From Myxococcota bacterium (lineage in GTDB: Bacteria; Myxococcota_A; Bradymonadia; UBA7976; UBA1532), in assembly GCA_963169045.1 (NCBI GenBank), contig CAUJDF010000108.1:62001-126000 (forward strand): DNA of 64,000 nucleotides, given 5' to 3'. The notes under the pieces were generated by a model that worked only from the letters and a program-made list of their open reading frames with translations, made no database searches and was not told the origin of the DNA. A program made the position numbers and the translations under genes. Numbering within the stretch: position 1 is the first letter of the stretch; each line of letters begins with the position of its first letter. Positions 9,889 through 15,302 of this stretch are shown here, in pieces.

Positions 9889-11013
9889 TTGGACGACTGG
9901 CAGGAGGGGTTGCAGCGCCTCGCGCAACTGCGCCGGGCGGTCGCCGACCTCGAAGAGCGGCTGGGCCTCGAGCGGCCGCCGCCCTCCCGCTGGCTCACCG
10001 CCGTGGAGCAGGCGACCGTCGAAGAGCTGGCGACGACCTACGCCGCCGACGCGATCACCGTCCACGCGGCGAACGGCGACTATCTGTTCGCCTCGCCGAG
10101 CGCCGCGGAGATCACCGGCTGGCCCGGCGATGCGCTGATCGGGCGCGGCTGCTACGAGCTCTTCCACGAAGAGGACGTGGCGCGCATCGCCGTCGACCAC
10201 GCCGGGCACCGCCAGCCCGACTTCCGCGGCCGCGTGCGCTACCGCATCCGGGGGCGCGACGGATCGTGGCGCTGGGTGGAGACGCGCAGCGCCGCGCGGC
10301 ACGGCCCCGACGGGGTGGACCTGATCGTGGCGGTGACCCGCCCCGTCGACGGGCCGGGCGAGGCGCCGGTCGCCGCCGGGCGGGCCGACTTCGCCCGCCG
10401 CGTGGCGCGCGTCCTGTCGCACGAGCTCAACAACCCGCTGGCGGTGGTGCTCGGCAGCCTGGACCTCGTCCGCGACCGCCTGGGCGGCGACCCCGAGCTC
10501 GTGAGCGTCTGCGACCAGATCGAGGCCGCGCTGGGGCGCGCGCAGTCCGTCGTCCGCCAGCTGGCGCGCGCCGGCGCGGACGTGTCGGCGCCCCGGCCCG
10601 TGGACCTGGCCCAGGTGCTGCGCCAGACGATCGCCGGCCTGCGGCGCGACCACCGCATCCCCGTCGACCTGGAGACGGAGCCCTGCCCGCTGCGGGTCGA
10701 CACGGTCCGACTTCATCAATTGCTTCATGAAGTGATCGAGGCGCACCTGCTGGCGCCACCCGACGAACGGGCGACGCCGGTCGCCATCCGGTGCCTCGCG
10801 CGCGACGGGCACGCCCTCGTCGAGGTGCGCGGGGGCGCGTCGCCGGAGCGCCGCATCCGCGCCGATCTGACGGGCCTGTTGCGGGGGGAGCCGCTGCCCG
10901 ACGACGACCTGCCGGCCTTCGTCGGTCGCCTGGCCGCCGAGCTGGGCGGCACCTGCGCCTTCGAGCCGGGCGAGCCGCCGGTCACCGTCCTGCGGCTGCC
11001 GCTCGCGACCTGA
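9889..11013 (+). CDS. PAS-domain histidine kinase with degenerate ATPase domain
   Basis: A 374-residue soluble protein. A short coiled coil (residues 4-30) is followed by a PAS domain (about 48-155: DAITVHAANGDYLFASPSAAE, with a PAC-like GRDGSWRWVETR). The dimerisation domain has an intact H box, LSHELNNPLAVVLGSLDLV, with phosphoacceptor H178. The following HATPase region is hard to recognise: the N-box position reads LHQLLHEVIEAHLLAP without the usual Asn residues, and no DxGxG or GxGLG glycine box is seen. It may accept phosphate from another kinase or act as a pseudokinase. The TTG start is supported by a GAGGGGG ribosome binding site 7 bases upstream. It diverges from the HDOD gene. Confidence 0.8.
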   Translation: MDDWQEGLQRLAQLRRAVADLEERLGLERPPPSRWLTAVEQATVEELATTYAADAITVHAANGDYLFASPSAAEITGWPGDALIGRGCYELFHEEDVARIAVDHAGHRQPDFRGRVRYRIRGRDGSWRWVETRSAARHGPDGVDLIVAVTRPVDGPGEAPVAAGRADFARRVARVLSHELNNPLAVVLGSLDLVRDRLGGDPELVSVCDQIEAALGRAQSVVRQLARAGADVSAPRPVDLAQVLRQTIAGLRRDHRIPVDLETEPCPLRVDTVRLHQLLHEVIEAHLLAPPDERATPVAIRCLARDGHALVEVRGGASPERRIRADLTGLLRGEPLPDDDLPAFVGRLAAELGGTCAFEPGEPPVTVLRLPLAT

Positions 11014-13827: not shown

Positions 13828-14238
13828 ATGCCCAACGACAGACGTACCGTGCTCCTCGTCGACGACGATCCGGGCGACGTGCTTGCCTTCCGCGACGCGG
13901 TGGACGTCGCTCGACTGCCCATCTCGCTGCACGTCGTCGGCGACGGCGACGCCGCGCTCGAGTTCCTTCGGCGCCGCCCGTCCTTCGTCGGCGCGCCGCG
14001 GCCCGACGTCGTCCTCCTCGAGCCGCGCCTGCCGCGGCGTGACGGCGCGTCGGTGCTGGCCGCCCTCGAGGCCGACCGCCACCTGCGCGGCCTGCCGGTG
14101 ATCCTCTTCACAGCCGGCGACGACGACGCCGGCCGCGGGCGCTGCGCGGTGCGCAAGCCCTCGGATCTCGACGGTTTCTTGCGCGTGCTGCGCGCGGTGG
14201 ACGCCCTGTTCGGCGCCGCCGGAAGGAGGCTGGCCTGA
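13828..14238 (+). CDS. Stand-alone receiver protein with Asp-to-Glu phosphoacceptor
   Basis: A 136-residue CheY-fold protein of the Rcp1-like type (VLLVDDDPGDVLAFRDAVD, then PRRDG and a conserved Lys in VRKPSD). The acidic pocket (D12-D14) and the Lys are present. At the end of beta strand 3, where the phosphorylated Asp is expected (usually VLLDxxLP), the sequence reads VVLLEPRLP, so residue 65 is Glu. Glu at this position often mimics the phosphorylated state. There is no output domain. Its TGA overlaps the ATG of the next gene by one base (TGATG), and a GGAAGGAGG site within its end serves that gene. It is likely a constitutively active-like partner of the adjacent degenerate kinase (inference). 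Confidence 0.85.
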   Translation: MPNDRRTVLLVDDDPGDVLAFRDAVDVARLPISLHVVGDGDAALEFLRRRPSFVGAPRPDVVLLEPRLPRRDGASVLAALEADRHLRGLPVILFTAGDDDAGRGRCAVRKPSDLDGFLRVLRAVDALFGAAGRRLA

Positions 14239-15302
14239 TGTCCGACGCCGCGCTGCGGATCCTGCTCGTCGCGCCCGACGGTGAACGCTGGCGGGCGCTG
14301 CTCGCCGCCGTCGAGGGCGCCCGCTTCGACCTCGCGTGCGCGCCGACGCTGCGGGCGGCCGTCGAGCGCCTCGGCCGCCAGCGCGTCGACGTGCTCGTGC
14401 TCGACCCGGACCTGCCGGACGCCCGCGGCCCCCAGGCGCTCGCCCGCCTCCGCCGACGGGCGCGGCACGTGCCGGTCGTCGTGCTCGGCGGCGGCGACGA
14501 CGAGGGACCGAAGGACGGCCTGCCGCGCGCGGAGCGCCTGTGGCGCATGATCGTGTCGGCGGCGTCGCACGGGGGCGGCGCGGCCTGGTCGCCCGAGATC
14601 GACCTGCGCGACGGGGCGCGCACGCCGCCCGTCCGCGACGACAGCGGCCTGGCGGCGGTGATCGCGCGGGCGTCGAACGACCTGCGCGGCCCCGTCTGCA
14701 CCATCGGGGGCCTCACGTCGCTGCTGCTCGAGGAGCACGGCGGCGGGCTCGACGCCGAGGGGCGGGCGCTCGTCGAGCGGACGCGCCGGGCGGCGCTGCG
14801 GCTGGACGACATGCTCGCCGGGCTCGGCCGCCTCGCCCTCATCGCCGGCGCGCCGGTCGAGCGCGTGCGCCTCGACGCCGGCGAGGTGGCGGCCCGCGTG
14901 CTGGCGGAGCTCGCCCGCGGGGAGCCGGGCGCCGGCGTCGCCGTCCGCGTCGGGACCGGCCTCTTCGTCTCCGCCGATCCCACGCTGCTCGAGCTGGCGC
15001 TCGAGGACCTGCTGGCGCACGTCTGGCGCTGCGGTCCGTCCCGGGTCGAGGTCGACGCGGCCGTCCCCGGCACCCTGGCCGTGCGCCACGACGGCACCCT
15101 GGCCGGCGCCGGCGCCTTCGCCCCGTTTCCGTGCCCGGGTCCCCCGGGCCTCGCCGCGGTGCGCTGCGTCGCCGAGCGCCACGGCGGCCGCGCCTGGATC
15201 GATCCCCACCCGGACGGCGGCGCCACGATCTTCGTCGCGCTCGAGCCCGCCGTCCTGACCGCCGCCGCCGACGGTGGCACCCCGACGGTCCGACAAGCCT
15301 GA
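14238..15302 (+). CDS. Receiver-histidine-kinase-like protein lacking the phosphoacceptor histidine
   Basis: A 354-residue cytoplasmic protein. Residues 6-115 form a receiver-like domain that keeps D56 (VLVLDPDLPD) but has only one acid in the pocket (LLVAPDGE). Residues about 138-200 form a HisKA-like dimerisation helix pair; the H box reads ARASNDLRGPVCTIGGLTSL, with Asn147 where His is required (normally SHDLRxP). The ATPase-like domain keeps a G2-like GLAAVRCVAERHGGRAW, but the N box (LELALEDLLAHVWRCG) lacks its Asn. It should therefore not autophosphorylate and probably acts as a scaffold or pseudokinase. It is coupled to the receiver gene by TGATG with a strong ribosome binding site (14221-14229). 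Confidence 0.82.
   Translation: MSDAALRILLVAPDGERWRALLAAVEGARFDLACAPTLRAAVERLGRQRVDVLVLDPDLPDARGPQALARLRRRARHVPVVVLGGGDDEGPKDGLPRAERLWRMIVSAASHGGGAAWSPEIDLRDGARTPPVRDDSGLAAVIARASNDLRGPVCTIGGLTSLLLEEHGGGLDAEGRALVERTRRAALRLDDMLAGLGRLALIAGAPVERVRLDAGEVAARVLAELARGEPGAGVAVRVGTGLFVSADPTLLELALEDLLAHVWRCGPSRVEVDAAVPGTLAVRHDGTLAGAGAFAPFPCPGPPGLAAVRCVAERHGGRAWIDPHPDGGATIFVALEPAVLTAAADGGTPTVRQA

Follow-up and report, generated by a model that had tools for sequence, protein, structure and literature searches.

Receivers that lack the phospho-acceptor aspartate are exemplified by FrzS, CmrT, WhiI and the plant PRRs, with glutamate being a common natural replacement, and the field has yet to settle what switches such pseudo-receivers (PMC12632262). 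Published rates are 2.0% for receivers without Asp and 0.9% for HisKA domains without His, and of 20 atypical regulators reviewed CmrT and FrzS only are non-orphans (PMC12632262). On the kinase side, DivL of Caulobacter combines DHp and ATPase-like domains but lacks the His, and it acts by binding a receiver, DivK~P (PMC4211667), and a ChrS version of C. glutamicum represents another pseudo-histidine kinase (PMC9491836). Osp, a receiver without the acid pair, inhibits the kinase CckA by binding its transmitter domain, and belongs with FixT to the small unphosphorylated receiver-like proteins that bind a kinase (PMC9430884). A literature search, thin on subscription journals, recovered papers that treat each kind singly and none on a pair with both losses. 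Known examples are thus of a pseudo-receiver or a pseudo-kinase by itself; here we describe both in one operon, in a single lineage.

The operon is located in a window of 64,000 nucleotides, the whole stretch of DNA that was analysed (Table 1). By sequence as well as by fold, its first gene belongs to the Rcp1-type family, the same single-domain receivers as the regulators of (bacterio)phytochrome operons (1i3c, 1k68, 6xvu and 5te9), and the best solved relatives include 5te9 (41% identical in the fold alignment), RcpA, Rcp1 and the Deinococcus bacteriophytochrome regulator. Unlike these regulators, the window receiver carries Glu in place of Asp65, lacks helix alpha4 and has no adjoining sensor kinase. 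The replacement by Glu65 is congruent with the initial annotation, coordinates and frame being exact: the residue aligns with the phospho-acceptor Asp of the family, which occupies this column in all Rcp1-like relatives of the class and in 48 of 48 matches from the loci of other genomes (a few of which represent the same locus twice). With a Response_reg match of 35.0 bits against a Pfam cut-off of 30.2, and the Asp missing, the protein is a pseudo-receiver in the sense of a Pfam receiver match with loss of at least one of five active-site residues; the remaining four of the five are left, as Asp12-14, Thr95 and Lys110 are retained. Further losses concern D+1 and D+2 (Leu66Pro and Asn67Arg) and the T+2 Ser. 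In the AlphaFold2 model (mean pLDDT 84.9), strands 91-95 and 106-109 follow each other without a helix between them, leaving the (beta-alpha)5 fold incomplete in this predicted, rather than solved, structure. The missing helix, overlooked in the initial annotation, is the middle of the switch/output face, and the receiver is without an output domain.

Table 1. Coordinates of the receiver-kinase pair, its parts and its neighbours in the window.
Feature	Positions	Strand	Basis or remark
PAS-HisKA kinase, His retained (SHELNNP)	9889-11013	+	about 3 kb upstream of the pair, same strand
Glycosidase-like protein, 893 aa	11041-13722	-	weak Bac_rhamnosid6H match
Single-domain Rcp1-type pseudo-receiver, 136 aa	13828-14238	+	Pfam Response_reg; best-matching solved structures are phytochrome response regulators
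Glu65 in place of phospho-Asp, codon GAG	14020-14022	+	alignment with relatives
beta4-beta5 stretch, about 7 residues and helix alpha4 missing	14119-14142	+	alignment, AlphaFold2 model
Ribosome-binding site AAGGAGG for the kinase, within the last part of the receiver gene	14223-14229	+	sequence
TGATG stop/start overlap (TGA 14236-14238, ATG 14238-14240)	14236-14240	+	sequence
REC-HisKA-HATPase pseudo-histidine kinase, 354 aa	14238-15302	+	Pfam, alignment
N-terminal receiver domain of the kinase, with deletions	14238-14573	+	Pfam, alignment
Linker of the kinase; conserved signalling helix in relatives	14574-14657	+	19% identical, Gly/Pro-rich here
DHp (HisKA) helix pair	14658-14852	+	alignment; modelled helices 136-170 and 173-204
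Asn147 in place of His, codon AAC	14676-14678	+	aligns with the His of HisKA
Degenerate ATP-binding domain of the kinase	14853-15251	+	N-box Asn, G1 Asp, lid and G2 glycines lost
Met-zincin (DUF4953), 1472 aa	15369-19787	+	conserved in 12 of 13 family genomes, neighbours differ

The second gene has a HisKA/ATPase architecture with functions lost, and is thereby a candidate pseudo-histidine kinase, a class whose members still take part in a signalling network. Its HisKA domain scores 20.2 bits, under the Pfam cut-off of 26.9, and its HATPase_c match is a 32-residue scrap of 16.4 bits (17.6 bits in the genome-wide search, where it is the lowest of the matches listed); a regular-expression motif count was too loose to classify this protein, and the Pfam HATPase_c search was used instead. 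The column of Asn147 holds His in every full-length kinase relative, and the N-box column N261 is occupied by His, hence both kinase replacements of the initial annotation were recovered, while that reading had overlooked the kinase's own receiver domain, found by Pfam as Response_reg just as in the first protein, with its lost acid pair and Lys, as well as the loss of the linker helix, the ATP lid and the G2 box. In this second receiver domain Asp56 (14403-14405) is retained, and the acid pair (A12 and P13) and Lys97 (replaced by Arg) are gone. The phospho-acceptor His and the N, G1 and G2 boxes of an active HisKA histidine kinase are thus absent, the protein is very probably unable to use ATP, and the sequence leaves no canonical His-to-Asp route by which phosphate could pass between receiver and kinase. 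A kinase core is still predicted for the DHp-ATPase part, with confidence for most of it, whereas the N-terminal receiver is not modelled confidently, due to the few usable relatives in the alignment. We also assessed whether the losses are aimed at catalytic residues, an idea that was rejected, as 3 of 12 catalytic columns and 43 of 81 other conserved columns are kept (Fisher p = 0.12, not significant). The composition of the kinase has drifted towards Gly, Pro and Ala.

The coupling of the two genes by the TGATG overlap is as originally proposed, and ribosome-binding sites are present for both. There is no stop or frameshift across the 490 codons of the pair, and the GC content by codon position (0.83/0.50/0.91 for the receiver and 0.86/0.57/0.96 for the kinase) is close to that of the other genes of the window (mean 0.76/0.51/0.96) and unlike the intergenic GC of 0.755. 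Considering the open frames, the third-position GC and the ribosome-binding sites together, both genes are probably still translated. A scan for promoters and terminators of the pair found nothing. When neutral drift to the divergence of the kinase was simulated, both frames stayed free of stops in 1-2% of the runs, with a third-position GC of about 0.85; the simulation is simple and without indels, and thereby generous to drift. This contrast points to translation of both genes under constraint for most of their divergence, although the pair may have lost its function recently.

Both losses are uncommon in this genome. Of its 134 receivers, 126 have the Asp and 8 do not, 3 of the latter with Glu, and the His is present in 118 of 121 HisKA domains, with Asn in two and Arg in one of the remaining three. 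Both receiver domains of the pair are among the weakest Pfam matches of the genome (38.1 and 34.5 bits). No other neighbouring gene pair with both losses was detected among the two-component genes of this genome, as judged by position. If independent, the double loss would affect about 0.15% of pairs at the rates of this genome and about 0.02% at the published rates, rare per pair, yet many cases are expected across tens of thousands of genomes. Separately, the genome encodes a further HisKA with Asn for His (L199, G000:C75:110044-110244; motif MANDFRTPLN), whose frame of 1530 aa still has a weaker HATPase_c match (47.6 bits), and two further natural-Glu receivers (L152, G000:C44:63553-63855, and L188, G000:C74:44067-44417), the Lys being retained in both.

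Relatives illuminate where the pair derives from. The usual arrangement in the family is a sensor kinase followed by an Rcp1-type receiver and a receiver-linked protein, mostly a receiver-kinase; intact triads are found in the same family (G002:C416 and G009:C561) and in this genome itself (G000:C49 and G000:C29), with similar arrangements in other groups (L138 and L140). The tree joins the window receiver to those of the G002 and G009 triads (support 99/95), and the genes of these closest neighbours have a sensor kinase on one side and a receiver-kinase on the other. Its end branch is 1.95 substitutions per site against a median of 0.21 (0.17 and 0.33 for the G002 and G009 receivers), and that of the kinase, placed near the receiver-kinases of the family, about 2.05 against medians of 0.26-0.29. 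Origin of both proteins from one triad is supported for the receiver, but grouping of the kinase with the triad kinases is weakly rejected (AU p = 0.039), with long branches in play. Searches of 57 genomes of the class, 379 genomes of the phylum and a GTDB scan returned no orthologue closer than about 47% for the receiver or about 38% for the kinase, and none carrying both the Glu and the Asn. Relatives with normal Asp and His do exist, however at 27-47% identity only, and hence they are no proof of a single-strain change. The pair, a strongly diverged version of a common light-sensor-type module that is confined to one lineage, is odd but not a new kind of system. As a side observation, in G009 and G002 (L082:554-5192 and L095:1395-6090) an intact receiver-kinase relative comes directly after a large protein (about 1160 aa) whose N-terminus is kinase-like (FGRYELNGLLGDGATA), which suggests coupling between a serine/threonine kinase and a histidine kinase.

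The surroundings of the pair were compared as well. It sits between the divergent glycosidase-like gene upstream and the Met-zincin gene downstream. The latter is 45-64% identical within the family, and no receiver-kinase pair precedes it in the relatives whose upstream DNA is covered, using gene calls from a simple script that gave none for two of the ten stretches. At E 1e-30, the glycosidase-like gene was unmatched in the 12 further genomes of the family. With this gene unique in the family and the Met-zincin elsewhere being without the pair, the placement is particular to this lineage. The PAS-HisKA gene further upstream has no HATPase_c match and is devoid of the N, G1 and G2 boxes, and it is a second degenerate kinase. 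A split triad, with this gene as the absent sensor kinase, was considered but is unsupported, as its His box is NtrB-like and it matches other kinases better than the triad sensor kinases.

Aggregated, we favour, at about an even chance, descent of the pair from a common module of receiver and receiver-kinase, with phosphotransfer since lost and any remaining action exerted through binding. The ancestor would have been the widespread module of sensor kinase, Rcp1-type single-domain receiver and receiver-linked kinase, of which the sensor kinase would no longer adjoin the pair. Every phosphotransfer step would have been lost, namely the binding of ATP, the phospho-acceptor His and Asp, and the metal site in the receiver domain of the kinase, with both genes presumably still translated as coupled proteins. 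What appears to survive is a part suited for binding, consisting of a receiver-like fold in which beta1-alpha1 positions are conserved, together with the DHp helix pair, and since this part survives, phosphate-independent binding is the likeliest mode of action. Provided that both proteins fold and bind each other, the Glu-receiver may dock on the Asn-DHp, or else on the DHp of intact paralogous kinases, and could there serve as a decoy or inhibitor, comparable to Osp and FixT on the receiver side, or to DivL on the kinase side. The long branches and the drift of the kinase towards Gly, Pro and Ala speak against this account, as relaxed selection fits them too. So do the kinase losses outside the catalytic columns and the doubtful origin of the kinase from the triad of the receiver.

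A decaying relic is the main rival, if a less probable one: the sensor kinase and then the function would have been lost, with the genes drifting and the frames being open mainly through the GC-rich DNA. Congruent with this are the very long branches and the GC-driven composition of the kinase, losses in every domain that extend beyond the catalytic sites, a lineage-specific place ahead of a Met-zincin gene that lacks the pair in relatives with covered upstream DNA, and the absence of an orthologue of the pair from the class, phylum and GTDB searches. On the other hand, 490 codons free of stops and frameshifts, third-position GC values of 0.91 and 0.96, the retained ribosome-binding sites and TGATG overlap, and the preservation of four of five active-site residues in the first receiver are not what decay predicts, and neutral simulation leaves the frames open in only 1-2% of the runs. 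That the pair is a selected, fully phosphate-independent pseudo two-component system in one operon, whose dead receiver and dead kinase signal purely by binding, for example as a dominant decoy of the cell's intact Rcp1-type modules, we consider unlikely.

The initial annotation had further suggested a signalling unit that works without phosphate transfer, the receiver perhaps locked in an active-like state. The first part holds insofar as the canonical His-to-Asp route is lost, the second is poorly supported. An arrangement where Glu65 mimics phospho-Asp, with the receiver permanently active and the kinase as scaffold, could draw on Glu being a common natural Asp replacement in pseudo-receivers (PMC12632262) and on the acid residues, Thr95 and Lys110 being kept; alpha4 is however missing and D+1, D+2 and T+2 are changed, meaning that the face that reports activation is not intact, and the receiver has no output domain to activate, rendering this scenario improbable. 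Still less probable is that phosphate flows via other residues, with Asp56 of the kinase's receiver as a sink or through another acceptor, for while Asp56 is present, the acid pair and Lys of that domain are lost, and an ATP site is missing from the kinase. Least probable, a sequencing or assembly error in this draft assembly would explain key changes that are each one base from the normal codon (GAC to GAG and CAC to AAC), but the changes, all in frame, affect dozens of conserved positions and include several indels, and with losses spread across so many motifs it is very unlikely.

Returning to the phosphotransfer-dead descendant acting through binding, the described systems share part of its features each. 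The window receiver resembles the aspartate-less pseudo-receivers FrzS, CmrT, WhiI and plant PRRs, where Glu is likewise common (PMC12632262), but unlike in these, the next gene encodes a dead kinase. The window kinase has, unlike DivL, also lost the N-box, G1, lid and G2, and carries a damaged receiver at the front where DivL has PAS domains. The likeness to Osp and FixT (PMC9430884) is one of proposed mode: Osp keeps Asp51 without the acid pair, and the window receiver is the reverse. Considering that the pair is known from one lineage, and there on long branches, drift has to be excluded before anything else; a neighbouring dead pair such as this would offer a simple system for asking whether receiver-kinase binding carries signal without phosphate.
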